A DNA stretch of 37,822 nt from Acidobacteria bacterium Mor1 (GTDB lineage: Bacteria > Acidobacteriota > Polarisedimenticolia > Polarisedimenticolales > Polarisedimenticolaceae), in NCBI GenBank assembly GCA_001664505.1, contig CP011806.1, positions 5,722,794 through 5,760,615 on the forward strand, given 5' to 3'. Positions 7,098-35,700 of this stretch are shown here, in pieces (positions within the stretch are counted from its first letter, which is position 1; each line of letters begins with the position of its first letter). Both the position numbers and the translations under genes were made by a program. The notes under the pieces are model-generated. The model saw only the letters and a list, made by a program, of their open reading frames with translations. It had not been told where the DNA came from and did no database searches.

Positions 7098-7610
7098 ATG
7101 TATTTCAAGCTCGCATCGGCTCGTTCTCGCCGCCCCGTTTCCCGGATCCTGCTGGGAGTGCTGTTGCTGCTGGTAACGGCGGCCGCACACGCCGGCAGCG
7201 TGGAGGGACGGGTCGACGCCAAACTGGGCAAGCTCCCCAGGGACCTGAGGATCCGAGCCCATCAGCTCCACCGGGACCTGCCGCCGGTGCTGGCCCCGGT
7301 GGACAGACGCGGCCGCTTCCTGCTGCAGGATCTGGCTCCGGGGACCTATCGGTTCGATTTCCTGCTGCCCAACAACACCGTGGTCGCCCAGGCCGGCGAG
7401 TCCTTCCTCGAGGTCGAGGAGGGTAAAAAGTACCGCCTCGACGTCGAGATGCCCCGCGGCGTCGGCAGCGCCGCCGAGACCCCGTTTCTCGACTGGCCGC
7501 TCCAGTACAAGGCGATCGCCGTGGTGGGGGCGGTCGCTGCGGCGGCGGTGATCTGTGAGGCCGACGACTGCACCGGCGACGACGATTCCGCCTCACCGAG
7601 CAGCCCCTGA
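7098..7610 (+). CDS. Small exported protein with carboxypeptidase-regulatory-like domain
   Basis: A 170-residue exported protein of unknown role. Residues 1-32 form a signal peptide (basic start, Leu-rich core, AAAHA cleavage region). Residues 33-115 resemble the beta-sandwich carboxypeptidase-regulatory/CnaB-like fold, with the recurrent pattern GRFLLQDLAPGTYRFDF near 75-90. A hydrophobic segment at about 135-152 could anchor the C-terminus, followed by an acidic tail rich in Asp and Ser. The ATG follows GGAG at 7087-7090. It is transcribed divergently from the PrsW gene and sits 80 bases upstream of the hybrid kinase, with a weak terminator-like hairpin between. Such domains usually mediate binding or structure rather than catalysis. 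Confidence 0.7.
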   Translation: MYFKLASARSRRPVSRILLGVLLLLVTAAAHAGSVEGRVDAKLGKLPRDLRIRAHQLHRDLPPVLAPVDRRGRFLLQDLAPGTYRFDFLLPNNTVVAQAGESFLEVEEGKKYRLDVEMPRGVGSAAETPFLDWPLQYKAIAVVGAVAAAAVICEADDCTGDDDSASPSSP

Positions 7611-17269: not shown

Positions 17270-20200
17270 TCAGCGATCCTCGACGGTGATGCGCACCTCG
17301 GCGCCGTTGGCCCGGATCTCCGGCACGTACATGGCGTGGCCCATCAGGGGCAACGCGTGGAAGTAGCCGGGCACCTCCGCCCGGAGATCGTAGCGGATCT
17401 CCCACAGACCCTGGGGCAGTTTGTCGATGAAGGCGGCGACCTTGCGGTCCCGCAGCTCCTGGTAGACACGCACGCTGCGGCCGGTGTAGTCCCGCTGATC
17501 CCGGGCGTGCTGCTCCAGCACGTGCTCGGTGTCTCGAAGTTGCCGGGCGTAGACCGGGGCGCCGCTCTGGAGCGCGATCGCCTCCAGGCCGGCGGGTTTC
17601 AGGTCCTCGAACAGCAGGTACTCGTAGTCGTTCTTGGCCTCGATGGTCAGCACCACCTGGACCCGGTCGCCGCTCCGCAGCGTCGCGCCGTCATGAAGCG
17701 GCTGCTGCTCGTAGCGGTAGCCCTGGAGCAGGGTCGGCTTGCCGATCAGCCCCAGGTACTGGCGCCGGACGAACAGCTCGTTGCCGGCGGCGGCGATCGG
17801 ATTCTCCAGGCTGAAGAACTCAGCCTCGGCGGAGAAGTAGAGCGGTCCCTCGCCCGAGGTGCGCACGATGCGGATCTCGTTCTCCCCATCGCGCACCAGC
17901 TCGGCCGGGACGGTGAAGCGGCTGGGAGCACTCAACACCTCGGAGGGGGTGACCCGCTCCCGGGCCACGGTCTCGCCGTTGACCGACAGTTCGTACTCCA
18001 GATCGCTGCTCAGTTCGCCGCTCGCGACCAGGTAGTCCGCAAGGGTCATCACCGCGATGGCGGTGTCCCGGGTATTGCTCCACTGGGCGCCCCGGCGGTT
18101 CTTGATCAGCCAGTTGATCGTCGGCTCGATCAGCTCGTTGTCGGGATCGACGGCCAGCATCGCCCGCAGGGCGAAGGCCGTCGACTCTACCGGGGAATCC
18201 GCCCAGCGCCACCAGACGCCGTCGGCGCCCCAGTGGGCGGTCCCCACGGCGGAGCGATCCGCCCGGCGGCCGCCACGGATCACGATCGAGGTGTCCGGCT
18301 TGCGGTCCCGCTGCACCCCGTTGCTCAGGTTGCGCACCAGGGTTTGTGCCTTGTCGGTCGCGCCCAGTTCATGGGCGGCCAGGGCAAACAGCGCACGGGT
18401 GTAGGCGTTGAGCCCGTTTTTCTGGGCCCAGAGGTTGTCGAAGGCGGTGCGGCGGAACTTGTTGTCCTTGCCCTCTCCGGCGACGGAGACCGCGTGGAGC
18501 AACCAGGCCAGCATCTCCGGGCGGTTTTCGTAGTTGACCAGCTCCTTGTCCAGCCAGTTGACGGCGCGGCGCAGCCGGTTGCGCTCGATCTTGACACCGG
18601 CGTCGTCGGCCAGGGCCAGGCCCCAGACCACGTAGGCGGTCATGAACGGATCGCTGTCGCTGTCCTTCCACCAGCCCCAGCCGCCGTCGCCCCGCTGGAA
18701 GTCGGCCAGGCGTTTCAGGCCGGCCTGGACCATGGCGTCGAGTTCGGCCAGGTCCTTGGCGCCCTTCGGATGAGTCGAGTCGGCGTGGGCTGCTTCGATG
18801 CCGCCGAACATCCGGCCGGCGATGGCTTCCTGCTCGATACCGAGCTGCTCCAGGGTGCGGGCGGTGATCACCGCCGGCAGGAAGCGGCTCATGGTCTGCT
18901 CGGTGCAGCCGTAGGGGTAGTCGATCAGGTAGGGCAGGGCGTCGAGCATGGTCACCGCCATGCTGGGCGTGACCTGCACCGTCATCACCGTCGAACGTCT
19001 CTCGTCGGGAAGCTCGAGGGTCACGGTGACGTCGTCCCCCCGGACCTTGCCCGAGCGAGCGATCAGCTTGTCGATGCCGTGTTCGAAGACCGGGTATTCC
19101 CGCTCCATGGCGTCGCTGTGGCCGTCGGCCCGCACCACGGCGCGCAGGGTCGCGTCTCCGGCGACCCGGGCGGTCGCGGTCCAGTCGACCCGGGTCTCGC
19201 CTCCGGCGGGCACCCGCACCGCGTCGGCGGTGCCGCGGCCGTCGAGGACCAGGCCGGCCACGTCCAGCGAGGGGGTGACGGTCAGGTCGGTTTCGCCGTT
19301 GTTGTTGACGATGGCCGAGAGGGTGACCTTGTCGCCGGCGACGAAGAAGCGGGGCGCCTGCAGCCGCACGATCAGCGGCTTGTTGGTGCGGGTGTCCGCC
19401 TCGCCGAAGCCGAAGGCGCTGTGCGCGGTCACCGCGCGGGCGGTGGCGTGCCAGGTGGTCAGCGAGTCCGGGTAGCTCACCTCGACGGTCGCCTTGCCGT
19501 CGGCGCCGGTGACCACGTCGGGCTGCCAGAAGACCGTGGAACGGAAGTCGCTGCGGACCTCGACGGTGTCGCCGCCGCCCTGTCCGTCGTCGCTGTCGCC
19601 GCCGCCGATGTAGCCCAGAGCGCTCAACGATTCCGCGTCTGCTTCCATGGCCATCGGCGCGGCCGCAAACTGGTCGCGACGCATGGATTTTTGGGCGACA
19701 GCGCCTCGCATTCGGGCGCCCGACTCCTCCTTTAGGTCCATAGCGCCGGGTGCCAGGGCCACATTGCTCGTGAACGTGCGGGAGATCGGCAGGTCCTTCA
19801 AGGAATCGTATGTGATCAGGTCGCCGCCATCCTCATCCCGCACCAGCTGCACGTACTGGAACTGATCGAAGCTGGAGTTGGTCCGGACCCGGTTGCCCCG
19901 TTTCGATCCGTAGAAGAACGGCCGGGGATCGCCGGCCAGGTCTTCCTGGATGTAGAACACCGACGCATCCACCAGACCCAGGGCGATCTCGGCCGAGACC
20001 GGGTTGCCCTCATGGTCGGTGGTCGTGACCTCCAGGGTGCCCTCATCGCCGGGCAGGTAGCTCTCGGCGTTGCCCTCGACGGAGACGTTGACGAACTGTT
20101 TCTCCGCCGGCACCACCACCGGCTTGCTGTCCCGGTGGAGCATGCCGCCCATGACCATGGCGGCTTCGAGGTGCACGTCGGGCACCCAGCGCTCGTCGAC

Positions 20201-23179
20201 GTCCAGCTCGACCAGCTTGACGGTGCCGTTGAGCTTGACCACCCGGTGCTCGAGGATGCCGCCGGCCTCGACGGTGAACAGCACGTGGGCTCCGGCAAGC
20301 TGGGAGACCAGCATCACCGGCGTCCGATGGCCGGAGCGGAAGGTGTCCTTGTCCAGAATGATCTCGACGCCGTCCCGGTGGTATCCGAGATCGGTGCTGT
20401 CCCGTTCGGCGACCCAGATCGCCGCCTGGGTCTCGATCGGCAGTTCGTCGGTGTCGATGCTCTCCCAGGCGACCTGATAGTAGCCGGGACGGTCGGGAAC
20501 GAAACTCAGTTCGGCCTTGCCCTCGGCGTCGGTGCGCACCTTGCGGGTCAGCACCTCGTCGCTCTTGTAGCCACGAAACTTGACGCGCCAGCCGGGGTCG
20601 CCGGGGCGGGGGGGCATCGGCGGGAAATCCCCGCGCCGCCTGATCTTGTCCAATTCGGCGCCCCGCACTTCACGACCGTAGGGATCGAGCCAGACCTCGG
20701 TCCAGCGCTGCCGGGTGACCCGCAGGGTGCCCTCGACCTCTACCGGGCGGCGGTTGGCGTCGACCACGTCGATGTTGAACCGGGCCGGCTGGCCCGGGCG
20801 GTGCAGGTAGTGGTCGGGGCGGATGAACGGGTAGTGCCCCTGGCGGCCGACCTTGAGGCTGCCGCGGCCGAGGATCTCCCGGCGGGAGGCGTCGATGACC
20901 CGGGCCTCGACGGTGTACTCGAAGTCCTGGCCGGCGTTCTCCGGCGTATCGAAGCGCACCGTGGCCCTACCCTCGGCGTCGGTGGCCAGGGTCTCGCGGT
21001 GGACGATCTGACCGCTGCCGCCACCCCAGTAGGGGGCGTGCCCCCGGTCCTCGAAGTACCAGGGGTACTTCCGGGGCTGGGGCATGTAGATCCAGAGCGG
21101 CTTCTGGTAGACCAGCACCTCCACCGAGGCTTCGGCCACCGGACCGCCGAAGTAGTACTCGGCGGTCACCGAGGCTTCGACGGTTTCGCCCATACGCATC
21201 GAGCGAGGCTTGCCCTCGTCGTCCACCGGCGGCTCGACCGTGACCTTGAACTCGGGAAGCTTGTATTCCTCGAGGCGGAACAGCCGGGCGTTGCCGATGT
21301 TGCGTTTCTTGTCGGCGGTGGTGAAACGCAGCTGGTACTCACCTAGCGGCATCTCCTCGGTGACTTCCAGGGAGCTCCAGAAGCTGCCGAAGTCGTTGAG
21401 CGTCGAATCACCTTCAGCGACCTTGGTACCCCTGGGGTCGAAGATCTCCCAATGGAGGACGCGGCCCGATGGGGTGTCGTAGCCCATGCCCTTGGTGGTG
21501 CGGGCCACCACCTTCCACTCGACAGTTTCACCCGGGCGGTAGGCCGGCCGGTCCGTAAAGGCGTAGAGCTTCCAGTTGCCGTCGGCGTCGTGGTGTCCCT
21601 GGCTGTAGCTCTGGGCGAAGGCCTGATGGTCTCCGTCCTCGATGGCGACCCAGAGTTGGGCGTAGCGTCGGCTGTCGGGAATGGGGAAGCGCACCAGGCC
21701 GTCATCGCCGCTCTTGCCGTCGATGCGGCTCCAGCGTTCCCCCTTGCGGGCGCTGGAGTCCCGGATCCAGAGCACCGCCGCGGCGTCGCGAGGTGTGCCG
21801 TCGACGGCGTCGACGACCCAGGCCAGGGCTTCTCCCGCCGCAGCCTTGACGACCACCGAGGCGCGGCTGACCAGCACCAGCGCCCGGCTCTGTTGCCCGG
21901 CGCCCCGGGCCTGCAGCACGTAGGCGCCGCTGGCGAGCTTGTCGTCGAGGGTGAGGGCCTTCTGCCCGGGGAGGTGTTCCCCGTTGTCCTCGGTGTCGAA
22001 CTTCCAGGCGCGTAGCGGCTTCGCCGGTAGCCGGATCCAGTCGATCCAGCTCTTGTTGTCCCGTGGTTCGAGATCCCGGGTCAGGGTCACCGGGTACAGC
22101 GCGAGATCGAGCTCGCCGACGTTGCGCCAGCTCAACTGGTACTGCACCTCGGAGCCGGGGAGGAACGCGTTGCTGACCGAGACCCCGGCCTGGGGCTTGG
22201 TGATCTGTTCGATCCGCGAGCGGGCCTGGTCGTGGTAGCGGCTTTCACCCTTGGCGAACTCCCGCACGACCCGGCGATAGAGCTCCAGCGCCCGGGGGAA
22301 GTCTGGCTGCTGGCGGTAGCCGCCCTGGGGCAGCTTCTCCAGCTTGCCGCCGCCGGCCAACCACTCGGCGTAGTTGTAGAGAGCGTCGTCGAACCAGTCG
22401 GTGCCCGCTCCCGTCTCGACGGCGGTTTCGAACGCTTCGCGAGTGCGGCGGTGATTGCGCGGGGTGGAACCCTGATAGCGCAGGGAACTGGCCAGCAGGT
22501 AGGACGCCCGGGCGCGCTCGTCCCGGTCGCGGGCGAGGGACAGGGCGTTTTCCAGTACCTGAAGCGGCATCTGGTTGCCGTAGTAGCCGTAATGTTCGTA
22601 GGGACGCGCCTGTGGCGGACGCGCCGCCCTCCAGACGATGCTCAGGTAGCGATCCCGGGCGAGGGTGAGCTCGGTGCTCCCGGCCCACCACTGGAGCGCT
22701 TGCTGGTAGTGGTTCCAGGCCGAGCCCCAGTCGCGCATCTCCGGGCGGACCCACCAGAAGTCGCCGAGGGATTCCTGCACCTCGACCCAGACTCGGTCGC
22801 GGTCCTGCTCCCGTTTGATGTCCCGGATCAGCAGATCGAGCGCCTGCCGCGCCTGCTCCAGCTTGCCCGGATCGGGCTGCTTGCTGCCGGCCAGGGCGCG
22901 CCAACGGGTGTCGGCCAGCCGGAAGTCGATCCAGCGGGCCTCATCCTCGGGCAACCCGGCGGCGGCCAGGGCCTCGAGCAGGGGAAGCGCCAGGGCGTAG
23001 GAGCCCTCGGCGATCAACCCCTCGGCCTTTTCCAGGCGCGGGTCGTCGGTTCGGGCCGGGGGGCTATCCACCCGGGCAGGTCTGGAATCGTCGGATCGCA
23101 CACCGGGATCGTACCCGGCGAGCAGCACGCCACCCAACAGGGCGAGAAGAACGGTCAAGAGGGGGAGGGGTCGTCTCAC
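17270..23179 (-). CDS. Very large alpha-2-macroglobulin-like protein with thioester motif
   Basis: A bacterial alpha-2-macroglobulin relative (1,969 residues from the GTG at 23179), likely exported to trap proteases in the periplasm. After an N-terminal hydrophobic export signal (about 4-24), residues 40-310 form a helical TPR-like region. Macroglobulin beta-domains follow (MG2-type YAFTDRPAYRPGETVEW), then the A2M domain (RSDFRSTVFWQPDVVTGADG) and the helical thioester domain. The thioester motif is intact as YPYGCTEQTMSRFLP (Cys1425, CxEQ), like E. coli YfhM. A low-complexity Met/Ala/Arg then Gly/Asp segment just before the A2M domain may be the bait region. The signal ends LLAGY rather than LAGC, so it is not an obvious lipoprotein. 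The GTG at 23179 has a good AGAAGGAG site; an alternative GTG at 23230 has none. Usual bacterial forms are about 1,500-1,650 residues. Confidence 0.88.
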   Translation of the reverse strand: MRRPLPLLTVLLALLGGVLLAGYDPGVRSDDSRPARVDSPPARTDDPRLEKAEGLIAEGSYALALPLLEALAAAGLPEDEARWIDFRLADTRWRALAGSKQPDPGKLEQARQALDLLIRDIKREQDRDRVWVEVQESLGDFWWVRPEMRDWGSAWNHYQQALQWWAGSTELTLARDRYLSIVWRAARPPQARPYEHYGYYGNQMPLQVLENALSLARDRDERARASYLLASSLRYQGSTPRNHRRTREAFETAVETGAGTDWFDDALYNYAEWLAGGGKLEKLPQGGYRQQPDFPRALELYRRVVREFAKGESRYHDQARSRIEQITKPQAGVSVSNAFLPGSEVQYQLSWRNVGELDLALYPVTLTRDLEPRDNKSWIDWIRLPAKPLRAWKFDTEDNGEHLPGQKALTLDDKLASGAYVLQARGAGQQSRALVLVSRASVVVKAAAGEALAWVVDAVDGTPRDAAAVLWIRDSSARKGERWSRIDGKSGDDGLVRFPIPDSRRYAQLWVAIEDGDHQAFAQSYSQGHHDADGNWKLYAFTDRPAYRPGETVEWKVVARTTKGMGYDTPSGRVLHWEIFDPRGTKVAEGDSTLNDFGSFWSSLEVTEEMPLGEYQLRFTTADKKRNIGNARLFRLEEYKLPEFKVTVEPPVDDEGKPRSMRMGETVEASVTAEYYFGGPVAEASVEVLVYQKPLWIYMPQPRKYPWYFEDRGHAPYWGGGSGQIVHRETLATDAEGRATVRFDTPENAGQDFEYTVEARVIDASRREILGRGSLKVGRQGHYPFIRPDHYLHRPGQPARFNIDVVDANRRPVEVEGTLRVTRQRWTEVWLDPYGREVRGAELDKIRRRGDFPPMPPRPGDPGWRVKFRGYKSDEVLTRKVRTDAEGKAELSFVPDRPGYYQVAWESIDTDELPIETQAAIWVAERDSTDLGYHRDGVEIILDKDTFRSGHRTPVMLVSQLAGAHVLFTVEAGGILEHRVVKLNGTVKLVELDVDERWVPDVHLEAAMVMGGMLHRDSKPVVVPAEKQFVNVSVEGNAESYLPGDEGTLEVTTTDHEGNPVSAEIALGLVDASVFYIQEDLAGDPRPFFYGSKRGNRVRTNSSFDQFQYVQLVRDEDGGDLITYDSLKDLPISRTFTSNVALAPGAMDLKEESGARMRGAVAQKSMRRDQFAAAPMAMEADAESLSALGYIGGGDSDDGQGGGDTVEVRSDFRSTVFWQPDVVTGADGKATVEVSYPDSLTTWHATARAVTAHSAFGFGEADTRTNKPLIVRLQAPRFFVAGDKVTLSAIVNNNGETDLTVTPSLDVAGLVLDGRGTADAVRVPAGGETRVDWTATARVAGDATLRAVVRADGHSDAMEREYPVFEHGIDKLIARSGKVRGDDVTVTLELPDERRSTVMTVQVTPSMAVTMLDALPYLIDYPYGCTEQTMSRFLPAVITARTLEQLGIEQEAIAGRMFGGIEAAHADSTHPKGAKDLAELDAMVQAGLKRLADFQRGDGGWGWWKDSDSDPFMTAYVVWGLALADDAGVKIERNRLRRAVNWLDKELVNYENRPEMLAWLLHAVSVAGEGKDNKFRRTAFDNLWAQKNGLNAYTRALFALAAHELGATDKAQTLVRNLSNGVQRDRKPDTSIVIRGGRRADRSAVGTAHWGADGVWWRWADSPVESTAFALRAMLAVDPDNELIEPTINWLIKNRRGAQWSNTRDTAIAVMTLADYLVASGELSSDLEYELSVNGETVARERVTPSEVLSAPSRFTVPAELVRDGENEIRIVRTSGEGPLYFSAEAEFFSLENPIAAAGNELFVRRQYLGLIGKPTLLQGYRYEQQPLHDGATLRSGDRVQVVLTIEAKNDYEYLLFEDLKPAGLEAIALQSGAPVYARQLRDTEHVLEQHARDQRDYTGRSVRVYQELRDRKVAAFIDKLPQGLWEIRYDLRAEVPGYFHALPLMGHAMYVPEIRANGAEVRITVEDR

Positions 23180-23186
23180 GATCAGG

Positions 23187-23194
23187 CTCCTTCT
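23187..23194 (-). promoter_or_regulatory. Ribosome-binding site that sets the start of the alpha-2-macroglobulin gene
   Basis: On the minus strand AGAAGGAG sits 7 bases before GTG at 23179. This places the start 17 codons downstream of the longest possible frame and directly before the signal sequence. Confidence 0.6.
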
Positions 23195-23243
23195 GCCCTG
23201 GGTGGGGCTTCCTGGCCCCTTATCGGACACCGCCTGCGGCGGG

Positions 23244-23291
23244 AAGTTCCCCGTTCATGCCCCGATTCGACCATTCATGGGGCTAAGTTCC
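23244..23291. repeat. Paired AAGTTCC direct repeats in a divergent promoter region
   Basis: AAGTTCC occurs at 23244-23250 and again at 23285-23291, 41 bases apart, in the 147-base gap between the alpha-2-macroglobulin gene and the kinase operon. A nearby CCCGTTCAT at 23250-23258 resembles one LytTR half-site (pattern [TA][AC][CA]GTTN[AG][TG]) at 8 of 9 positions. The LytTR spacing rule (about 21 bases) is not clearly met, so this is only a candidate operator. Confidence 0.25.
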
Positions 23292-23326: not shown

Positions 23327-25297
23327 ATGAACCTGTACACGCCCATCGCCCTTCTGGTCAACAGTTTCGGCGTCCTGGCTTACGCCACGGTGCTGGGGAT
23401 GATGCTGGCTGGGCCCCGCCGCAGCAGTTGGACCGTCGATCGCAGCTCCCGCGAGTCCTACGTGATGTCGCTGGTGATGAGTTCGGTCTGCCTCGTCTGG
23501 TTCGCCAACGAGGTGCTGATGCTGTTGATCGACCCGGAGTTCGACGGCTACATCCTGCGCAGCCTGTCGCTGATGATCGGATTCATGTTCCCGCCGCTGA
23601 TCATGCACTCCAGCGCCGCCGAGTCCGAGCCGTTGCCCTCCCGCGGGCGGCTGCGGATCCGGCCGACCCGTTCGGCCAAGCGCTGGGTCTGGGCCATGTG
23701 GATCTTCAGCCCGGGGCTCGGCCTGTTTGCGTTGACCACCTTCTGGTACCCGCCGCTGACCAAGGCCGTGCGCGATGCCGGTTTGCTGTACTTCCTCGGA
23801 TCGGGGGGGCTGGGGCTCTGCTTCATCCTCGCCGCGATCTTCTCGATCCGGCAGATGTCCCAGAAGCCCGCCGCGGAGAAGGCCGAGGACCGCAAGCTGC
23901 GCAAGGTGATGATCCTGCTGTTCGGCGCGGTGATTCTGTTGTTCGTGCCGCTGGTGCTCGAGGGGCTGGGCCTGCTGCGCTTCGGCAGCTATCTGCAGCT
24001 GGTGGCCAAGTCGCTGCCGCTGATCTTCCTTTTTGCCGGCACCTACTACTCGAATCGCTTCGAACTGTTCGACCTGTTCATCAAGCGGGGCACGGCGCTG
24101 CTGGTCACCGCCTCGGGCCTGACCCTGTTCTTCGCCCTGGCGCTGCCCTGGCTCGAGACGCTCCCCGCGGGTTCGGTGCGCCCCTGGGCCTGGGCGGTCG
24201 CCTTGCTGCCGGTGGCCCTGGCGCTCCCCTGGCTCTGGCGCCGGCTGTTCCGGTTCCTCGAGAACGCCTGGTTCGGACGGCACTTCACGTTGGTCGAGGC
24301 GGTCAAGCACTTCGTCTCTCGGCTGCGCGGAGTGTCCAGCGAACGGGAGGCGATCGAGACCGCCGAAGGAGCGCTGACCGAGATCTTTCAGGCGCCCTGC
24401 AGGATCGACCTCGGCTCCCTGGCCTCGGCGCCGGACTTCGAGCCGGAACTGGAACGGCCGCTCTCGACCCGGGAGGACGGACTGGTTGGCACGGTGAGGA
24501 TGGGCCCCCGGGCCGGCCAGCGCCCGTACTTCAGCGAGGACGTCGAGCTCCTCGGTTCCCTCGGCGAGGTGTTCTGCGACCTGCTCCAGGGGGTGCGCGC
24601 GCTGGAACAGAAGCGGATCCAGGAGCAGCTGACCCAGGAGTTGCAGCTCCAGAGCAGCCGCTCGGAACTCAAGGCGCTGCGGGCCCAGATCAACCCGCAC
24701 TTCCTGTTCAACGCGCTCAACGCCATTGCCGGATTGATTCATCAGGATCCGCAAAAGGCGGACCGCACCGTGGAGAAACTGGCCGACGTCTTCCGCTACA
24801 CGTTGCGCGGCTCCGACCAGGAGTGGGCGCTGCTGGGGGAAGAGCTGGAGTTCGTCGAGGCGTATCTCGCCATCGAACAGGCCCGTTTCGGCAAGCGGCT
24901 GGAGGTGACCATCGCCGTCGATCAGGCGATTCGCGGCGAGCGGGTCCCCGGCATGATGTTGCAGACCCTGGTCGAGAACGCGATCAAGCACGGGGTCGCC
25001 ACGGTACGAGGCCCGGCACGTCTCGAGGTCCACGGCGCCCGGGTCGCCGGGGGAGGTCTGGAGCTGTCGGTCCGGGACAGTGGGCCCGGCTTTCCCGAGA
25101 GCGATCCCGAGGGACGGCGAGAGCGCACCGACGGCGGCTACGGCCTGGCCAATGTGCGCCAGCGCCTCGAGGGGCACTTCGGAGCTGCAGCCTCGCTTCA
25201 CGTCGCGCGGCTCGATGAAGGCTTGACCGCCGTCACCCTGCGGCTACCCTCGACGCCTACGGGCCGCGAAGCGGACCGGTCCAACCAGGGAGCGTAG
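23327..25297 (+). CDS. LytS/YehU-type sensor histidine kinase with multi-helix membrane domain
   Basis: A membrane kinase of 656 residues. About eight or nine hydrophobic helices occupy residues 5-310, followed by a short GAF-like linker (about 325-435). The His_kinase (PF06580) module has ALRAQINPHFLFNALNAI with His458, and a HATPase domain has LVENAIKHG (Asn551), DSGPGF and GYGLANVRQRL. Kinases of this class usually phosphorylate LytTR-type regulators. The ATG at 23327 is chosen because the protein there begins with a transmembrane helix; the open frame extends 365 codons upstream but is antisense to the alpha-2-macroglobulin gene. The stop TAG is immediately followed by the ATG of the next gene. 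It heads a three-gene operon with two receivers. The input signal is unknown. Confidence 0.9.
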   Translation: MNLYTPIALLVNSFGVLAYATVLGMMLAGPRRSSWTVDRSSRESYVMSLVMSSVCLVWFANEVLMLLIDPEFDGYILRSLSLMIGFMFPPLIMHSSAAESEPLPSRGRLRIRPTRSAKRWVWAMWIFSPGLGLFALTTFWYPPLTKAVRDAGLLYFLGSGGLGLCFILAAIFSIRQMSQKPAAEKAEDRKLRKVMILLFGAVILLFVPLVLEGLGLLRFGSYLQLVAKSLPLIFLFAGTYYSNRFELFDLFIKRGTALLVTASGLTLFFALALPWLETLPAGSVRPWAWAVALLPVALALPWLWRRLFRFLENAWFGRHFTLVEAVKHFVSRLRGVSSEREAIETAEGALTEIFQAPCRIDLGSLASAPDFEPELERPLSTREDGLVGTVRMGPRAGQRPYFSEDVELLGSLGEVFCDLLQGVRALEQKRIQEQLTQELQLQSSRSELKALRAQINPHFLFNALNAIAGLIHQDPQKADRTVEKLADVFRYTLRGSDQEWALLGEELEFVEAYLAIEQARFGKRLEVTIAVDQAIRGERVPGMMLQTLVENAIKHGVATVRGPARLEVHGARVAGGGLELSVRDSGPGFPESDPEGRRERTDGGYGLANVRQRLEGHFGAAASLHVARLDEGLTAVTLRLPSTPTGREADRSNQGA

Positions 25298-26365
25298 ATG
25301 CGAGCGCTGTTGGTCGACGACGAGGAGCCGGCGCGGCTGCGGCTGCGCAGCATGCTCGAGGAGGCGGGTTTCATCCAGGTGGTGGGCGAAGCCGAGGACG
25401 GTGAAGCCGCGCTCGAGGCGGTGAACTCGCTACGCCCCGATCTGCTCTTCCTCGACATCCAGATGCCCGGTATGACCGGACTGGAGGTGGCCGCGAGCCT
25501 CGTGCCGCCCCGGCCCCAGGTTATCTTCTGTACCGCCTACGATCAGTTCGCCATCGAGGCCTTCGAGCACCACGCCGCCGACTATCTGCTCAAGCCGCTG
25601 AACCGGGACCGGCTGAAGAAGGCGCTGGACAAGGTTCGCGGCCGTCACGAGTTGGCCGAAGCGGGCCGCACCCAGCAGGCCCTGTTCCCCAGCGGAGCGG
25701 GCGCCGTCTCGACCCTGGACTACGACGGAAGCTGCCGCCCGGCACGGGAGATCGGCGGCGACTACTACGACTTCCTGCCGGTGGGGCAGGGGAAACTCTG
25801 CATCGTGGTCGCCGACGTGGCCGGCAAGGGCTTGCCCGCCGCCCTGACCATGGCCGGGCTCCAGGCCCGGGTACAGATGCTGCTCGCCGACCATGCGGCC
25901 GATCCGGCCAGGCTCGCTGCTGAATTGAATCGCGGACTCTGCGGGGCGACCGAATCCAATCGCTACGTGACGCTCTTTCTGGGAGTCTACGACGCCGGCG
26001 AACGTTCGCTGCACTACGTCAACGCCGGCCACGAGCGTCCGCTCTGGATTCGGCCTGACGGTGAGGTGCGGCGGCTGGACAGTACCGGCATGGCGGTCGG
26101 CCTGTTCGACAGTGCCTCTTACGAGGCGTCGCGGGTGCAGCTCGATCCCGGCGATGCGATCGTCGCCTTCAGCGACGGCCTGACCGAGACGACCAACGCC
26201 GAGGGGGTGGAGCTCGGTGAAGAGCTGCTGGCCGGCTGGGTCCGCGCCGATCCGGGTTCTGCGGCCGAGCTGCGGGCGCGGATCGTCGAGCGCGCCGATG
26301 CCTACCGGGCCGGCGGCGCTCAGGCCGACGACCTGACCGTGGTGGTCGCCAAGGTGCTGCCGTGA
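25298..26365 (+). CDS. Response regulator with PP2C/SpoIIE-type phosphatase output
   Basis: A cytoplasmic regulator of 355 residues. The receiver (1-118) has the acidic pocket VDDEE, acceptor Asp53 (FLDIQMPG) and Lys99 (LLKP). The output domain (about 135-355) is a SpoIIE/RsbU-like Ser/Thr phosphatase with all metal-binding motifs: GGDYYD (153-158), DVAGKG (173-178), SDG (292-294) and ADD (343-345). Such enzymes usually dephosphorylate an anti-sigma factor antagonist (STAS protein) in partner-switching pathways, but no STAS or RsbW-like gene is in the window. The receiver is strikingly similar to that of the downstream LytTR regulator and is of LytTR subfamily type, suggesting duplication with an exchanged output domain. 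The gene abuts the kinase stop and overlaps the next gene by 4 bases. Confidence 0.92.
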   Translation: MRALLVDDEEPARLRLRSMLEEAGFIQVVGEAEDGEAALEAVNSLRPDLLFLDIQMPGMTGLEVAASLVPPRPQVIFCTAYDQFAIEAFEHHAADYLLKPLNRDRLKKALDKVRGRHELAEAGRTQQALFPSGAGAVSTLDYDGSCRPAREIGGDYYDFLPVGQGKLCIVVADVAGKGLPAALTMAGLQARVQMLLADHAADPARLAAELNRGLCGATESNRYVTLFLGVYDAGERSLHYVNAGHERPLWIRPDGEVRRLDSTGMAVGLFDSASYEASRVQLDPGDAIVAFSDGLTETTNAEGVELGEELLAGWVRADPGSAAELRARIVERADAYRAGGAQADDLTVVVAKVLP

Positions 26366-27087
26366 TCCGGGTGCTGCTGGTCGACGACGAGGAGCCCGCC
26401 CGGGAGCGGCTGCGGCGCCTGCTGGCCGCGGTCCAGGACATCGAGATCGTCGGTGAGGCCGAAGACGGGCCCCAGGCGGTGGAGCAGATCGCGGAGCTGG
26501 AACCGGACGTGGTGTTCCTCGACATCCAGATGCCCGGATGCAGCGGCCTCGAGGTGGCCTCTTCGCTTTCCGATCCCAGGCCGCGGATCATCTTCTGCAC
26601 GGCCTACGACCAGCATGCCGTCGACGCCTTCGAGCTTCACGCCGTGGACTACCTGTTGAAGCCGGTCAGTCAGGCCCGGCTCGATGCGGCGATCGAGCGG
26701 TTGCGGGGCCCGGCCTCTCCCCGAGCGGTCACCGAGAAGGTCAACGAGGCCTCGGGGTTTCCCCGGCGCCTGCTGGCCAAGAAGGGTTCTCGCTTCCACG
26801 TCGTGCCCCACGATGCGGTGCTCTACTTCCTCTCCGAGGGGGGAGCGACCAAGCTGCAGGCGGGGGACGGCCACTACTGGATGCAGCCGACCTTGAACGA
26901 TCTCGAGAAGCGTCTCGATCCCCGGCAGTTCTTCCGGGTCTCCCGCTCGGCAATCGTGCACCTGGACGCGGTTTCCGAAGTGGTCCCACTGGGAGGCGGA
27001 CACGCCGAGGTGGTGATGCGGGACGACGCCCGCCTCGAGGTCAGCCGCCGCCGCTACAAGGATTTGCTGGAGTTCCTCGAGCAGTAA
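26362..27087 (+). CDS. LytTR-family response regulator
   Basis: A DNA-binding response regulator of 241 residues. The receiver (1-115) has acceptor Asp54 and Lys100. A LytTR domain (about 135-238) carries the hallmark FFRVSRSAIVHLDAV. It is probably the transcriptional output of the LytS-type kinase two genes upstream. LytTR proteins bind pairs of 9-bp direct repeats spaced about 12 bases apart, and a possible site lies in the promoter region at 23244-23291. The start is GTG in the overlap GTGA with the phosphatase gene, so the three proteins are probably made together. A strong bidirectional hairpin follows the stop after 5 bases. Target genes are unknown. Confidence 0.93.
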   Translation: MIRVLLVDDEEPARERLRRLLAAVQDIEIVGEAEDGPQAVEQIAELEPDVVFLDIQMPGCSGLEVASSLSDPRPRIIFCTAYDQHAVDAFELHAVDYLLKPVSQARLDAAIERLRGPASPRAVTEKVNEASGFPRRLLAKKGSRFHVVPHDAVLYFLSEGGATKLQAGDGHYWMQPTLNDLEKRLDPRQFFRVSRSAIVHLDAVSEVVPLGGGHAEVVMRDDARLEVSRRRYKDLLEFLEQ

Positions 27088-27089
27088 CG

Positions 27090-27120
27090 AAAAAGGGCCG
27101 CGCCAGGTGGCGCGGCCCTT
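27090..27120. terminator. Bidirectional rho-independent terminator
   Basis: A perfect 12-bp stem (27093-27104 with 27109-27120, arms AAGGGCCGCGCC and GGCGCGGCCCTT) closes an AGGT loop. It is flanked by AAAAA on its left, which reads TTTTT at the 3' end on the minus strand. It sits in the 54-base gap between the converging LytTR regulator and TonB receptor genes. It is stronger for the minus strand, but the TT tail also allows plus-strand termination. Confidence 0.88.
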
Positions 27121-27141: not shown

Positions 27142-29586
27142 CTAGAAGCTGCGGCGGGTGCTCACGCCGTAGGTCCGGGGCTGGTTGGTCAGGTAACCGA
27201 CCCGCGCCAGGGTGCCGCGCTCCTGGTCGAGGGCGAGCAGCGCGCGCTCGTCGCCCACGTTGTTGATGTAGAACGCCCAGTCCCACTTGCCGTCGGCGAA
27301 GCCGAGTCGCAGGTTGACCAGATCGTAAGAGGGCAGTTCCGGGTTGAAGGTGAAGGTCGACTGGGTCAGCGGTCCACCGATGTTGCTGGGATCGAAGGCC
27401 AGCAGGTCGACGGTGCCGAAGCCGGCGGCCTGGTCGCCGATCTGGGTGAAGCGGGAACCGACATGCTGGTAGACCAGCGTCAGGTAACCCAGCCAGCTGT
27501 TCTCCATCTGCCACTGGTAGGTCGCCGCAGCAGCGACCTGCAGTTCAGGAACGCTGGGCAGGCGGTTGCCGTCCTGGATGCCGCTGACCACGCTGACGCC
27601 GCCGCCTGCATCGGTGGAGGTGATGGTCGACTTGAGTTCCGCTTCCAGCACGCTGGCCGAGATCGCGAAGTCGAAGTTCTCGTTGGGTGCCGCGGCGAAC
27701 TCGAATTCGAGGCCCTGGCTCTGGGCCTCGGGAACGTTGAACACCAGACGCGAGGAGCAGGAGCCGGCGGTGACGGTGGCTTGCAGGTCGGTGATGTCGG
27801 CGAGGAAGGCGGCAACGTTGATCGTGCCGCGGCCGCCCATGACCTTGGCCTTGGCGCCGATCTCGTAGTTCCACAGCTCCTCGTCTTCCCAGGTGTCGCG
27901 GCCGCCGAAGGTGATTTCATCCTCGGGGGTACAGAGCGGCACGTTCAGCGGATCGTTGATGCCGCCGAGACGGAAGCCCTGGGAGGCCTGAGCGTTGAGC
28001 CGCACGTTGTCGTTCAGTTCGAAGCTGGCGATGACGCGGGGCACGAAGCCGTCGGCCTCGACCGAACCCGGGGTCTCGACCAGCGCCGTACCGTTGTTGT
28101 CGTTGCCGAAGATGCCGTCGAACACCTGGGTGCGGTCTTCCTCAAAGTCGTAGAAGCGTCCACCGACGGTCAGGTCGAAGCGGTCGGTGATGGCGATGTT
28201 GGCTTCACCGAAGAGGGCGATCTGATCCAGGTCGTAGCCCAGGCGGGAGAAGAACAGGGTGTCCCGGGGAGCCAGCAGGCCGGTGGTTCCGATGCCCGAC
28301 AGATCCTCGAAGCCGAAGACCAGCAGGTCCTGGCTGTAGTCCCGCTCGATGGTGCTGTAGAACAGACCGCCGACCCATTCGACCCGGTCGTTGCCCCCGG
28401 AGATACGCAGCTCCTGGGTGAACATCTCGGCAGTGGTGGCGTCGTCCAGCGGAGCATCCAGGCTGAAGACCTCCTGGGCCAGGCCCAGGGTGCCGCCGGT
28501 GATGCTCGCGGTAAGGGCGGTGGCGTCGCGTACGACCAGGATGTCCCGGTCGGTATACGAGGTGACCGAGGTCAACTCGGCGCCGCCGAAGTCGTAGCTC
28601 AGCGTCACGTCGGCCAGGAAGAACTCGTCGGTGAATTCCTCTTCGAGCTGGGTGAACTGCTCCCGCTCACCCAGGGTCACCGCCGGGCGGGTAGTGGTGA
28701 ACGGGTTGGCCAGGATGTTGTAGTCGTCGATGCGGTTCCAACCGTCCATCTCGACTTCCTGGTAGATGATCCGCGGGGTGATGCTGAAGTTCTCGTTGGG
28801 CTCATAGCGCAGGGCGATGCGGGCGCCGGCCCGGTCGCCGCTGTTGACGTCCCGGTCGATCTGCAGATCCGGGCGCCGGGCGTCCAGGAAGCCGGGCATG
28901 CTAGAGGTATAGGCCGAGACGCGCAGGGCGGAGTTGTCGCCCAGCGGCATGTTGGTCGCCAGCTTGACGTCGCCGCCGAACTCGCCGCCGTCCACCGAGG
29001 TGAAGTTGAACTCACCGAAGGTCTCGTCCTTGCCGATTTCCGGTTGGTTGGTGATGTAGCGCACCGTGCCCGAAAGCGATCCGGAACCGAACAGGGTTCC
29101 CTGGGGGCCGCGCAGCACCTCGATGCGGGAGGTATCGAACAGATCGATATCCGGGGTGAAGAGCGAGAGCGAGATCACCGATTCGTCGAGGTAGACGCCG
29201 ACCTGCTCCTTGACGCCGGGCTGATCGCGGACGATCTGGCCCGCGGAGACACCGCGCATGGCCACCTGGCTCTGGCCGGGGCCGAGGTTCTGAACATTGA
29301 AGCCGGCGACGTTGGCCGCGACGTCTTCGATATTCTGAGCGCCTCGTTGGCGTAGCACCTCTTCGGTCGGCGCCGCCACGGACATCGGGACCTCCTGGAG
29401 ATCCTCTTCCCGTTTGCGCGCCGTGACCTTGACGCTCTCGACGTAGGTGCTCTGCCCGGCCTTCTCGTCCTTGTCGTCGTCCTCGGCGTGAACGCCGGGG
29501 GCGCCGGACACCAGGATCAGCAGCGCGAAGACGAATGCCGCTCCCAGCAGGAAGGGCAGTCGCGAAATGTATCCATTCTGTTTCAT
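27142..29586 (-). CDS. TonB-dependent outer-membrane receptor
   Basis: An energised outer-membrane transporter for an unknown scarce ligand such as an iron complex, vitamin or glycan. It has 814 residues. A signal peptide ends near Ala34 (GVHA), and a TonB-box-like segment (YVESVKVTA, near 48-56) follows. The plug domain (about 57-180) carries the diagnostic RGPQGTLFG (149-157) and SLSGTVRYITNQP. A 22-strand-type barrel follows and ends in Phe (TRRSF), as expected for Bam-assembled proteins. The ATG at 29586 follows GGGGAG; a longer frame from 29619 adds 11 unconvincing residues. No SusD partner, siderophore gene or regulator is adjacent, so the substrate is undetermined. It has its own candidate promoter downstream of the giant repeat protein gene. 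Confidence 0.92.
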   Translation of the reverse strand: MKQNGYISRLPFLLGAAFVFALLILVSGAPGVHAEDDDKDEKAGQSTYVESVKVTARKREEDLQEVPMSVAAPTEEVLRQRGAQNIEDVAANVAGFNVQNLGPGQSQVAMRGVSAGQIVRDQPGVKEQVGVYLDESVISLSLFTPDIDLFDTSRIEVLRGPQGTLFGSGSLSGTVRYITNQPEIGKDETFGEFNFTSVDGGEFGGDVKLATNMPLGDNSALRVSAYTSSMPGFLDARRPDLQIDRDVNSGDRAGARIALRYEPNENFSITPRIIYQEVEMDGWNRIDDYNILANPFTTTRPAVTLGEREQFTQLEEEFTDEFFLADVTLSYDFGGAELTSVTSYTDRDILVVRDATALTASITGGTLGLAQEVFSLDAPLDDATTAEMFTQELRISGGNDRVEWVGGLFYSTIERDYSQDLLVFGFEDLSGIGTTGLLAPRDTLFFSRLGYDLDQIALFGEANIAITDRFDLTVGGRFYDFEEDRTQVFDGIFGNDNNGTALVETPGSVEADGFVPRVIASFELNDNVRLNAQASQGFRLGGINDPLNVPLCTPEDEITFGGRDTWEDEELWNYEIGAKAKVMGGRGTINVAAFLADITDLQATVTAGSCSSRLVFNVPEAQSQGLEFEFAAAPNENFDFAISASVLEAELKSTITSTDAGGGVSVVSGIQDGNRLPSVPELQVAAAATYQWQMENSWLGYLTLVYQHVGSRFTQIGDQAAGFGTVDLLAFDPSNIGGPLTQSTFTFNPELPSYDLVNLRLGFADGKWDWAFYINNVGDERALLALDQERGTLARVGYLTNQPRTYGVSTRRSF

Positions 29587-29642
29587 GTAACGCTCCCCAG
29601 CGGCATGGAGCCCTCTCACAGCCGAGGGTTCCGGGGCCGTGA

Positions 29643-29713: not shown

Positions 29714-32700
29714 CTAGAACTTGCCCAGGAGCTTGATGAACCAACCGTCGTTGTCGTAGTCCAGGTCGGTCAGATCGTCGGAGAAGTCGGTGAAGTTGTA
29801 GCCGACGCCGACCTTGAGGTTTTGCTGAATGTGCCGGTAGAGCGCCGCCAGCGCACCGCGCCGTTCGTCGCCGGCCTCGTCGGAGGTCAGCACCCGGTAG
29901 TCGACCACCGCATCCCAGCTGTGCAGCATGTGGTAGCGGATCTGCGCCAGCGCCAGACGGGCGTCGGAACTGAGCCACAGACCCTGATCCCGCACCAGGC
30001 GCATCTCACCCCGCCGTTCGGCCAGCTTCGCGCCGACCTGCCAACGAGCGGACAGTTCGTAGAGCGCCTCGGTGGAAACCACATGAGTGCGCTGATCCGG
30101 CCGCAGGTCCCGCTGGCCGGCACTCGGTAGATCGAACAGGTAGGAGTACTTGCTCAGCAGGTTGAAGCGGTCGTGGCGCACCGGGCGGAAGGCCACCCCG
30201 ACGCTGCTCTCGACGAAGCGCGCGTTGTTGGCGCCGCCGGCCCGGTTGTCGGACTGAGAGCTGTTGAAGCGCATCACCAGGCTGGTGCTCGGGTTGGCGC
30301 GGTAGCGCAGGAAGTTGGTCTGCACCCACTGCCGCTCGTTGCGACCGCCGCTGTCGTGGCGGTACTCCACCTTGCCGCGGTAGGTCGAACGCTCACCGGC
30401 GTAGTCGAACAGGAAGCTGACCGCGTCCCGGTCGATCCCGCCGAGGAGCGGGCTGTCCAGCGCGGCCCGTTGGACGGTGACGCCTACGCGCCAGCGCTCG
30501 TCGGGGCGGTAGTCCAGGCCGACCACGTTGGATAGCGCCGATTCCCCACGGCGCTCGGTGAACTGGGCCTCGTTGAACAGCTGCAGCTGGTTGCTCAGCT
30601 GCGAGCGCCGGCCGACGACCATCGCGCCGGTCTGTCCGTCGAGGCGGTCCACCGATTCGGTGTAGTTCATGTAGACCTGGGACCCGCCGGGCATGGTGTA
30701 GTCGGCACCGACCCGCACCGCGTCGCCGCGATCGCCGGAGCTGGCTTCGGCACGCAGGCCGGCCCGTTCGCCGACCTTGGTCCGTACACCGAGGGTCGCC
30801 AGGTTGTTGTCCTGGTAGTTGTCGTCGCTTTCGATCTCGAGCTGGACCGCGCCGTAGACGTCGGTCTGCTCGGTGACCGGCACCGACAGGCGGAAGCCGG
30901 CCAGGGTGCCCTCGACGGCGCCGGCGTTGCCGATCTCCTCCTGCACGTGGCGGATCTCGCCGCTGATGCCCACGCCGCCGCTGGAACGGTGGTCGAGCTG
31001 GATACCCGCCGCCTCGTCGCGGAGCTCGTCGTTGCCGATCTCGGTGACCGCGGCCCGGGCCGCGAGAGTCGTTCGTTCACCGACCTTCCAGCGGACCTCG
31101 CCGCCGTACTCGGTGACGTCCCGGTCGGTGGCCAGGCGAGCCGTGGAGAAGCCGGCGCTGCGGTCGCGCCACCACACGGCCGCCGTGCCCTCACGGTCGC
31201 CGAAGTCGGCCATGTTCAGCCGGCCCTCGATGGCGATCGCTTCGCCCGAAGTCCGCTGACCCGCCACCTCGCCGGTGGTGATCTGAGTGAAGGTCAACCC
31301 GCCGTCCAGCGAACCGAAGGAACTCTGGAGCTGGGTCGACTCGGTCTCGACGTACTCGGCCTTGACGTAGGTGCCCTCACCCTTGCGCAGGGTCAGATCC
31401 ACGCCCTGCATCTGGTAGTCCAGGTTGTTTCGCTCTTCGTTGACGTAGGTGGCGCCCACCGCGAAGTCGTCGGTTACCCAGCCCTTGCCGCGGAAGCCGG
31501 CGGTGGCGTCGTCGGCACTGAAGCCGCCGGGGATGTATTCGTAGTCGACCAGCAGCAACACCCGGTTTCCGTCCAGCGGCGTGTCCCGGATGATCGAGGG
31601 CGCGGCCTGGTCGGCGACCTGGGTCAACGGCCGGGTCAGGATGACCCGCCCCTGCAACTCGTCCAGGTCGTAGTCCCGCCCGCGCTCCAGCACCTGGCGC
31701 TCGATGACCCGGCCGGAATCCCGGTCGCGGATCTCGATCCAGACCTTCTCCGAACCGATCACGATGTCGGTGTCGCGCAGGTAGTAGAGGCTGCCGCCGG
31801 TGCCGACGAACTCGTTGTGCCCGAAGGCGCTCTGCGCCTGCGAACCGAAGGCGTTGATCTCGGCCCGGTGCTCGCCGTACTTGGTCGTGTCCTTGCTGCG
31901 GTGGTGCACCTTGGCGCCGTACAGCGTGCGGTTGAATTCGGCGAACTCGGTGCCGGTGAAGTTGGTGTGGTAGTTGCCCCACAGCGCCTCGGACTCGTCC
32001 CAGGCGAAGTGGACGTACATCCGGCCCTGGGAGTTGACGTCGTTGACCGTGGTCGAGTCGTCTCCGTAGACCGGGTAGTAGCGGTCGGGATCGATCCGCC
32101 GGAACAGCTGGCGCGGATCCTCCCGGTCGAGGTTGTCGAACAGGTCGTCGATGTCCTCCTCGGTGGTGTCCACGTGGGCGGTCAGCAGGTGCTTGCCCTT
32201 GACCTTGCCCTTGAGGTAGACCGCGATGCGGCCGTCGACGTAGGTCTCGCCGTCGTAGCGTTCGTCCCCTTCGAGTAACTCGACGTTACCGGCAGGGGAG
32301 TTCTCGCCGGCGGTGAAGTCCGCCAGGCCGACCACGAACCAGTAGCGCTCGGAGACGTCGATCCGCCGGGACTCGGACCAATCCTGGTCCATGCCGAACT
32401 CCAGTTCGTAGGCGCCCGGCTGAACCAGGCTCTCGGCGGCGACCCGGCCGTCGTCACTGACCGCCATCGGCTTTCCGTTGAGGGTCAGCGCGGCGTCGGC
32501 GGGGACGCCCCGGCCGTGGACCCGGATGCGGCTGGCCTGGATCGGGATCCGCGCCGTCTGCGGCGGGGTCTCGGTGCTGGCGCGGCCGGCCTCGGGGTCG
32601 CGATCGGCGTCGAGGTCGACACCCATCGGACGCTGGACCTTCGCCTGGAGTCCGCCGGCGGCGGAGGTGTCCATACGGCCGTCGGCGTCGTAGACCCGCA

Positions 32701-35700
32701 GCCGGTAGGTCAGGGCGGTTCCGGGCAACACCGGGTTGCCCTCGGCGTCCTTGCCGTCCCAGGTGATCGACTCGTGGCCGACCAGCCGCTTCCCTTCGAG
32801 CACCCGCATCGGGCGGGAGAAGTCGGTATCCCGGGCATGGAACAGTTCGAGCCGGTAGTGATCGATAAAGGCGCCGTAGTTGGCGTACAGAGAGAAGTCC
32901 ACCGGATCTCCGGCGGGGAAGGTGCCGTCGGCCGGTCCACGGACAGCCAGGCGGCGTTCCCGGGAAGCCGGATCCTCGGTGATCCAGAGCGTGCCGCCGC
33001 CGGGTAGTTCGACCGGCTCGACTGCGCGCTTGGAGGGACGGTCGCTGGCGACGGCCCCGGGAGCCGGGCGCACGCCGAAGTTGATCCGTCCCATCAACGC
33101 CTGGGTGATGTGGATCACCCGCGGGTTCTCGGTGGTGAAGCTGAAGCCGGGGGGCAGGGTGGTCGGATCCACCTTGACGATCACGTTGCGCCCGCGATCG
33201 GCCCTTCCGGCGTCGACATCGGCAATGTGATAGCGCCCTTCCGCATCGGTCTCGATCAGGAGGCCGGTGGCGGTGCCCAGGCGCACCCCGGGAATGCCCG
33301 GCTCACCCTCGTCCTGGCGTCCGTCGCCGTCGATGTCGACGAAGACCTTACCGATGATGGTGGTCTTTTCCAGGATCGGGTCGCCGGCCAGGACCTCCAC
33401 CGACGCGGTGGCGGTGTTGCCGATCACGTTGCCTGCCGCGAGCGGCGTGGCGTTGTTGACCGCACGGCCGGGCAGCACGCCCGAACCGACCCGCAGCACG
33501 TAGCTGATCGAGACGCTCTCGTTGGGGCCCAGGTCGAAGGGGCCGAACTCCATCGGGCGAGTTCCGCTGGGCGCCAGCGGTTCGATGACATCGTCGGCGG
33601 TGCCGAGCTGGCCATCCATTCCGCTGCGGTGCAGGCGGCCGGATTCATCGACGTACTTGAAGCCGGCGGCCTGGGTGTCTCGAATCGAGAGGCCGGTCAC
33701 CGGTGCCGCCGAGAGGTTCTCGGCGATCACGCTGTAGCTGACGAGGCCGGCGATGCCGGTCTCGCGGATGCCGGCGCTCTTCTGCACGAGCACCACGCCC
33801 ATGCTTCCGGAATCGCCGTCCAGGTAGTCCGGCGTGCCGTCGCCGTCGGAGTCGTCGTTGCGCGGGTCACCGTCGCCGTCCGGATCCTCGGCGGCGGTCG
33901 GCGTCCCGTCGTTGTCGTCGTCGGTATCCCGCCAGTCGCGGGTATCGTCGCCGTCGGTGTCCTGGAGCGGTGCGTTGGAGCCCGCCGAGTTGCCGGCGGC
34001 CGGCGCGTTGACCGTGTCGAAAGCGTCGTCCAGGCCGTCACTGTCGGCGTCGTTTCCGCTGGGCACCCGGTCGGGCACGCCGTCCATGTCGGCGTCGTGG
34101 CCCTCGGTGGCGTCGGGCACCGTGTCGTTGTCCGAGTCGAGATCCAGGTAGTCCGGCGTGCCGTCTTCGTCGGTGTCGACGGGGTCGATCGGCGTGCCTC
34201 CCTGGTCCGGGTCGAACGCATCGTCCAGGCCGTCGCCGTCCTGGTCGCTGCCGGTCGGCAGCGTCAGCGGTCCCTCGGGCTGGCCTTCCACCAGATCGGG
34301 GATGCCGTCGTTGTCCGAATCGATGTCGAGGCTGTCGATGACGCCGTCTCCGTCGGAGTCGCCGTCCCCTTCGTCGACGTCGAGGATGCCGTCGTTGTCG
34401 TCATCCACGTCGATGCCGTTGGGGATGCCGTCGCCGTCGTTGTCCTCGACCACGTCGGTGTCCAGGTAGTCCGGTGTGCCGTCCCGGTCGGAATCGTCGT
34501 TCCGCGGGTCGCCGTCGCCGTTCTGGTCCTCTTCGGCGGTGGGAACGCCGTCGCCGTCGTCGTCGGTATCCCGCCAGTCGCGGGTCTCGTCGCCGTCGGT
34601 GTTCTGGAGCGGGGCGTTGGAGCCGGTGCTGTTGAGCGGATCGGGGCCGGGGACGGTGTCGTAGGCATCGTCCAGGCCGTCCATGTCCGCGTCGCTACCG
34701 CCGGGCAGGGTGTCGGGCACCCCGTCCATGTTCGCGTCGTGACCCTCGGTGGCGTCGGGCACCGTGTCGTTGTCCGAGTCGAGGTCCCGGTAGTCCGGGG
34801 TGCCGTCGCCGTCGGTATCGACCGGATCGATCGGGGCACCCCCCTGATCCGGATCGAAGGCGTCGTCGATGCCGTCGCCGTCGGTGTCGTTGCCGCTGGG
34901 CAGGGTCGCTCCGTCTTCGGGCTGGCCCTCCACGGTATCGACGATGCCGTCACCGTCGGCATCGATGTCCAGCCGGTCCGGCCGGCCGTCGCCGTCGGTG
35001 TCGCCATCCCCTTCGTCCACGTCAAGGATGCCGTCGTTGTCGTCGTCGGGGTCGATGTTGTCCGGCACCCCGTCGCCGTCGCTGTCGGGCTGCTCGGCGG
35101 TGTCCGGATCCAGGTAGTCCGGTGTTCCGTCGCCGTCCTGATCGTCGTTGCGCGGGTCGCCGTCTCCGTTGGCGTCCTCATCCATGGTCAGGATGCCGTC
35201 GCCGTCGTCGTCGGTGTCCCGCCAGTCGCGGGTGTCGTCGCCGTCGGTGTCCTGAAGCGGCGCGTTGGAGCCGGTTGCGTTGAACGGATCGGGGCCCGGG
35301 ACGGTGTCGTAGGCATCGTCCAGACCGTCCCCGTCGGCGTCGCTACCGCTGGGCAGCGTGTCCGGCACGCCGTCCATGTCGGCGTCGTGCCCTTCGGTGC
35401 TGTCGGGCACCATGTCGTTGTCCGAGTCCAGGTCGCGGACGTCGGGGGTGCCGTCGTTGTCGGTGTCGACGGGAATGATCGGCGAGCCCCCCTGGTCCGG
35501 GTCGAAGGCGTCGTCGATGCCGTCGCCGTCGGTGTCGTTGCCGCTGGGGAGCGTGGTGCCGCCCTCGGGCTGGCCTTCCAGCGTGTCGACGATACCGTCG
35601 TTGTCGGAGTCGATGTCGAGCCGGTCGGGAATGCCGTCGCCGTCGGTGTCGCCGTCTCCCTCGTCGGGATCGAGGATGCCGTCGTTGTCGTCATCGGGAT

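Follow-up and report, generated by a model that had tools for sequence, protein, structure and literature searches.

The question raised by this locus is whether one sensor kinase may control transcription and a Ser/Thr phosphatase at the same time, through two receivers derived from a common copy. The locus is a three-gene operon of Acidobacteria bacterium Mor1, and the window in which it was analysed is a stretch of 37,822 nucleotides (contig CP011806.1, positions 5,722,794 to 5,760,615), lying at 5.72-5.76 Mb of a genome that consists of one contig of 5.985 Mb. On the plus strand, the operon encodes a membrane histidine kinase of 656 aa (23327-25297; assigned by Pfam, ortholog alignment and an AlphaFold2 model), a response regulator of 355 aa in which a receiver (REC) is joined to a PP2C phosphatase (REC-PP2C, 25298-26365; Pfam and ortholog alignment) and a response regulator of 241 aa in which a receiver is joined to a LytTR domain (REC-LytTR, 26362-27087; Pfam). 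The TAG of the kinase and the ATG of REC-PP2C abut (25295-25300), and the REC-LytTR gene overlaps the REC-PP2C stop in a GTGA (26362-26365). An earlier reading of the bare sequence (hereafter the original prediction) had described three tightly coupled genes, and its coordinates, domains and junctions were all correct. We hypothesize, with a probability of roughly 0.6, that these genes form a branched two-component system, in which one kinase would serve two sister receivers, the LytTR arm autoregulating the operon and the PP2C arm acting on a STAS protein encoded elsewhere.

The kinase has the domains that such a role would need. About eight N-terminal helices (roughly residues 4-316) are followed by a GAF-like domain (~322-402), a His_kinase domain (PF06580, 2e-28) and HATPase_c, and the AlphaFold2 model, with a predicted local distance difference test score (pLDDT) of 76.5, likewise places ~8 predicted helices before a GAF-like alpha/beta domain. 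H458, the predicted phosphoacceptor, is invariant across 10 orthologues, as are N462, N551, G586 and G606; in the proposed system the kinase would autophosphorylate on this histidine. The nearest solved kinase core in a fold search was GanS (6swj); the matches listed were kinase or photoreceptor-kinase structures, and the sensor half gained no informative match. Pfam likewise found no sensor family in the N-terminal half, where the best sub-threshold match was DUF6814 (E 0.014), nor any LytS-type domain of five transmembrane helices up to E 1. As judged from these profiles, the kinase is LytS-type (HK5) in its core alone, so that the name given to it in the original prediction suits the catalytic half and not the sensor half. 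An HK5 core kinase and a REC-LytTR regulator stand in one operon, as in LytS/LytTR systems.

REC-PP2C consists of a receiver (1-115; Pfam REC, 6.8e-26), a linker (116-140) and a SpoIIE/RsbU-type PP2C domain (141-355), which matches SpoIIE (PF07228, 1.1e-45) over positions 2-191 of 192 and is, as had been claimed, complete. In REC-LytTR, the receiver (1-116; 4.4e-26) is followed by the LytTR DNA-binding domain (144-239; 3.2e-21). Receiver residues D7/D8, D53, T79 and K99 of REC-PP2C and its metal-binding aspartates D155, D158, D173, D293, D344 and D345 are invariant in 11 orthologues, and the ratio of nonsynonymous to synonymous substitution rates (dN/dS) of 0.14-0.16 in two closely related pairs indicates purifying selection. 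These data bear on the idea that REC-PP2C is mainly a phosphate sink, which would set the threshold or the shut-off speed of the LytTR branch while its phosphatase activity would be secondary. A sink would call for just such a second copy of the receiver within the operon, but it needs no catalytic domain, and the retention of every metal-binding aspartate under purifying selection makes such a role very improbable.

By sequence profile and by fold, the nearest solved full-length relative of REC-PP2C is P. aeruginosa RssB (3f7a/3eq2), which together with E. coli RssB (PMC12143880) has the same REC-linker-PP2C architecture. RssB differs in being an adaptor in sigma S degradation, the E. coli protein being a truncated pseudophosphatase, and identity is ~25%. 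A helix is predicted in the linker of REC-PP2C (118-129), at a low-confidence pLDDT of ~48. In RssB and the RsbU-type phosphatases, the switch works through helical linkers that cross (PMC12143880), and because of this structural precedent we propose that REC-PP2C is an RsbU/RssB-type Ser/Thr phosphatase whose activity phosphorylation of the receiver would raise or lower via the linker. The sign of this effect is unpredictable, since phosphorylation activates RsbY and inhibits RsfR (PMC10950880).

The layout is not peculiar to Mor1. The whole kinase, searched against 396 Acidobacteriota genomes, returned the window and 20 strong relatives alike in kind. A search restricted to the phylum of Bryobacterales F-183 gave these loci again, with identical contig coordinates and E-values, which places the genome of the window in Acidobacteriota. 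With longer flanks, the order kinase, REC-PP2C, REC-LytTR was found in 12 operons, that of the window and 11 further Acidobacteriota loci, one of which (L173) ends with its contig before the LytTR gene. In three loci (L164, L165 and L175) REC-LytTR directly follows the kinase and REC-PP2C is absent, and six contigs stop too early to show gene order. Coupling of the kinase and REC-PP2C genes recurs as a stop/start overlap, ATGA or GTGA, in L161, L162, L163, L166, L168-L171 and L173. Outside the phylum, no orthologous kinase was found at E 1e-55 in 16 Latescibacterota, 80 Krumholzibacteriota and 398 Pseudomonadota genomes, a weak negative because the search had no positive control. A plasmid search gave weak matches alone, generic REC and PP2C proteins of <60% identity, and a contig scan with REC-PP2C, seeded by exact peptides, returned mostly unrelated PP2Cs and missed true orthologues. 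Two REC-PP2C genes have simple repeats within or next to them, an in-frame TLG repeat in L166:9603-10799 and, where the gene ends in L163 (~7150-7184), TTGAGGTCC-like repeats, which could make the gene length-variable.

Over 115 residues, the two receivers of the operon share 62% identity (E 2e-47), far beyond chance, which bears out their description as near-duplicates. In a tree of 65 receiver sequences, the 26 that come from kinase operons formed one clade including both genes (99/95), apart from all other sampled REC-LytTR and REC-PP2C proteins, so that the two receivers did not fall far apart. When the operon REC-PP2Cs were placed with unrelated REC-PP2Cs, the approximately unbiased test rejected the tree (p-AU 0.012), and for the receiver the idea that a LytTR operon took up an unrelated REC-PP2C gene is rejected with it; that all operon REC-PP2Cs stem from one origin was not rejected (p 0.54). 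The 12 operon phosphatase domains also form one clade (support of 96 in the Shimodaira-Hasegawa-like approximate likelihood ratio test), and their sister, at a support of just 83, is a phosphatase from a different type of LytS/LytTR operon. These trees support the duplication put forward in the original prediction, although not as a recent event within the Mor1 genome, which is rejected because the layout is common to several families; the duplication appears to be old, preceding the split of several Acidobacteriota families. REC-PP2C may have arisen by exchange of a LytTR output, as the original prediction had it, or through the addition of a receiver to a PP2C gene that already existed.

The operon kinases form one clade as well (100), inside which the operons devoid of REC-PP2C are scattered. 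The best reading is one duplication in an ancestor common to several Acidobacteriota families, with the phosphatase gene lost repeatedly thereafter, and horizontal transfer of whole operons could also have contributed to the spread. In L164, one of the operons without the phosphatase gene, comparison with the closely related L176 (downstream DNA 98% identical) shows the kinase tail joined in frame to the last ~14 phosphatase residues. This fusion may be the scar of a REC-PP2C loss, or it may be a misassembly, since the source is a metagenome bin.

In receivers, helix alpha1 is the main kinase-docking helix, and alpha4-beta5-alpha5 is the output and dimerisation face. If the same kinase acted on both proteins, it would pass phosphate from H458 to two sister receivers of one translationally coupled operon. 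The two receivers of one operon agreed at 64% of alpha1 positions, compared with 54% for receivers from different operons (permutation p=0.0004, on 11 operons from 8 clades), a result that survives correction for the 11 receiver regions tested, and the within-operon value even exceeds the 59% observed among orthologous LytTR receivers. By the same test, alpha2, alpha3, alpha4 and alpha5 displayed no significant within-operon excess and beta2 a weak one (p 0.045). Non-operon REC-LytTRs share just 43% alpha1 identity with the operon LytTR receivers. Had phylogeny or independent duplications produced the signal, every receiver region should have been raised alike, unlike the pattern observed. We regard the alpha1 covariation as moderate evidence that one kinase is common to both receivers.

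The alternative is that the kinase serves only one of the regulators, the other receiving its phosphate from a different kinase or from small-molecule phosphodonors, and that the operon is a convenience of co-expression. The nearest described layout, the RsfR-RsfS-MSMEG_6128 operon of M. smegmatis, behaves in this manner: it also combines a kinase, a REC-PP2C and another receiver protein whose output domain binds DNA, and RsfS phosphorylates RsfR, not the neighbouring REC-HTH protein (PMC10950880). RsfSR differs from the operon of Mor1 in its CHASE3-domain kinase, in having a helix-turn-helix (HTH) instead of LytTR and in the adjoining genes for RsfB (STAS) and RsbW2, and RsfR, the only protein phosphorylated, is thereby inhibited (PMC10950880). 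Moreover, the receivers of RsfSR are not known to be sister copies, whereas here they belong to one clade and match in alpha1 operon by operon; the kinase and REC-LytTR also persist together in the three loci without REC-PP2C. A kinase with one partner is, for these reasons, unlikely in our view.

Nevertheless, the branched pathway of the original prediction, which finds some backing in alpha1, has several points weighing against it. One is the RsfSR precedent, where a kinase with two candidate receivers in its operon phosphorylates one. The alpha1 test is based on the 11 operons and 8 clades given above. Gene conversion at the 5' end may also contribute to the signal, since identical alpha1 codons amount to 0.48 within versus 0.33 between operons; in the two f58 operons with common unusual alpha1 residues, however, identical codons number only 1/8 and 0/8. 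Identity to the window is 50-68% for orthologous REC-PP2C receivers versus 65-77% for those of REC-LytTR, and since the former evolve faster, some of them may be losing phosphotransfer. Finally, neither the Mor1 genome nor 10 further genomes with the operon, of which several are fragmented, showed a STAS or RsbW-type gene close to it.

SpoIIE/RsbU-type PP2Cs of known substrate mostly act on STAS proteins, as do the known PP2Cs under receiver control, and a phosphorylated STAS protein encoded elsewhere would be the most likely substrate of REC-PP2C. As the original prediction had noted, the window holds no STAS target; in the Mor1 genome the nearest STAS gene lies ~412 kb from the operon. This genome has eight STAS-domain matches, and an RsbW-STAS pair at G000:C1 437930-438669 is the first candidate among them. 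RsbW-type and STAS genes were found elsewhere in all 12 genomes searched, side by side in several, so that RsbW-STAS pairs do exist in genomes bearing the operon. The proposal of a partner-switching cascade can thus be kept in part: a target in trans is plausible, while no linked partner was found. A sigma factor at the end of the cascade, also suggested, fares worse, as none of the 12 genomes had a SigB/F/G-family sigma over the curated TIGR02980 cut-off; a SigB-like output is not supported by these profiles and was set aside as a candidate.

The phosphatase might instead act on something other than an anti-sigma antagonist, such as a STAS-controlled cyclase, a substrate of a eukaryotic-type Ser/Thr kinase (eSTK) or an envelope protein, which would be compatible with a branched kinase and differ in the substrate alone. 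The lack of a linked STAS gene and of a sigma match would fit this, as would a parallel module with a transmembrane PP2C, LytS and LytTR (described below) that adjoins a bactofilin-like gene. In Pseudomonas, the PP2C/STAS system SiaABCD controls a cyclase (cited in PMC9239204). The known preference of these phosphatases for STAS proteins and the RsbW-STAS pairs mentioned above speak for the other side, and we consider a different kind of substrate possible, if rather doubtful.

The DNA-binding arm has a candidate site within the operon's own upstream region. The 96-base gap before the kinase, which separates it from a divergent alpha-2-macroglobulin gene, contains a direct repeat, CCGTTCATG-N11-CCATTCATG (23251-23279, plus strand), of which 0.02 per window are expected by chance and which we take to be of the AlgR/LytTR-operator type. 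Upstream of 12 orthologous kinases, repeats spaced by 21 bases scored 13.5 versus 11.2 +/- 0.24 in shuffled sequences (0/200); spacings of 19, 22 and 23 were near background, and those of 24 and 10 were mildly raised. The repeat of the window itself has a spacing of 20, against the 21 enriched in its orthologous counterparts. The search pattern, with R at the variable places, was modelled on the site in the window and so matches there by construction; no other exact match occurs in the 5.985-Mb genome, where spacing-21 sites were not searched, and only this absence elsewhere is informative. These data suggest that REC-LytTR binds the upstream repeat and mainly autoregulates the operon. Perhaps it controls the alpha-2-macroglobulin gene as well.

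Besides the operon, the Mor1 genome has two LytTR loci. It carries a second association of PP2C with a LytS/LytTR pair (L099:4989-9712, equal to about 2343988-2348711 of G000:C1), an operon of four genes. These encode a PP2C whose membrane domain has four helices, together with an HK5 kinase, REC-LytTR and a membrane protein resembling bactofilin. In operons of this type, phosphatase and kinase have homologous four-helix membrane domains (profile comparison, 99.8% probability), with BLAST identities of 34% in L099 and 50% in L024. Synteny of the module extends to L101, L151-L154 and L157, its gene order differs in L022 and L024, and L107 lacks the PP2C but has the other three genes (kinase, LytTR and bactofilin-like). 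From these comparisons, PP2C has been tied to LytS/LytTR in two ways, by copying of the receiver and by copying of the sensor. We would give an even chance to the broader idea that these are two Acidobacteriota designs by which one signal drives a DNA-binding and a Ser/Thr-dephosphorylation arm, splitting after the kinase in one and at the sensor in the other, and that the sister PP2Cs (support 83) are a natural example of one output with exchangeable input domains.

Other known systems share single features with the operon. RsbK-RsbY of Bacillus cereus has a two-component-controlled REC-PP2C, acting there on a STAS protein, and differs in its hybrid kinase, its SigB output and the activation of RsbY by phosphorylation, no LytTR partner being described there (PMC10950880). 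HsbR and CrsR (PMC6482189) and SypE (as described in PMC12826045) are receiver-containing PP2Cs that act on STAS proteins; each of these proteins also contains an RsbW-like kinase domain, and none has a LytTR sister. The BtsR/LytR-type LytTR systems have the pair of HK5 kinase and REC-LytTR, and differ in lacking a phosphatase arm and in having another sensor domain; BtsR was the best-matching model for REC-LytTR, at 186 bits versus the 246 required. No paper on the order kinase, REC-PP2C, REC-LytTR was found in the openly licensed literature searched (LytTR with PP2C or SpoIIE); the original prediction, too, had known of no described example.

If the branched system is real, a transcription factor and a Ser/Thr phosphatase would be supplied by the same kinase, which would connect two fields of regulation that have mostly been studied apart. 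The ancient sister receivers, with the same probable kinase and different outputs, are present in ~12 sampled genomes and absent in some relatives, and the operon could be used to ask how, once a receiver has been duplicated, both copies stay cognate to their kinase, with the docking helix held and the output face freed. The membrane domain shared by kinase and phosphatase in the second module would be a natural case of the exchangeable-input idea for RsbU-type phosphatases (PMC12143880).

Neither of the genes flanking the operon stays with it in distant genomes, as judged from the flanks of distant operons, and neighbouring genes were rejected as regulatory targets for this reason. Upstream, the divergent gene (17270-23230, minus strand) encodes an alpha-2-macroglobulin of 1986 aa with A2M, MG2, TED and bMG10 domains. 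Downstream, inspection of open reading frames placed a TonB-dependent-receptor-like gene (27142-29619, minus strand) convergent with the operon. Between the two, just 3' of the operon, the sequence contains a perfect 10-bp inverted repeat, GGGCCGCGCC-AGGT-GGCGCGGCCC (27095-27118), beside an A5 run (27090-27094). This repeat is terminator-like and would best fit the convergent minus-strand gene, possibly serving the operon and the TonB-receptor gene alike. Further on, a protein of 2648 aa (29714-37660, minus strand) contains long Asp/Gly-rich runs of DxDxDG-like repeats; it is probably calcium-binding, and its C-terminal part may be an outer-membrane barrel.

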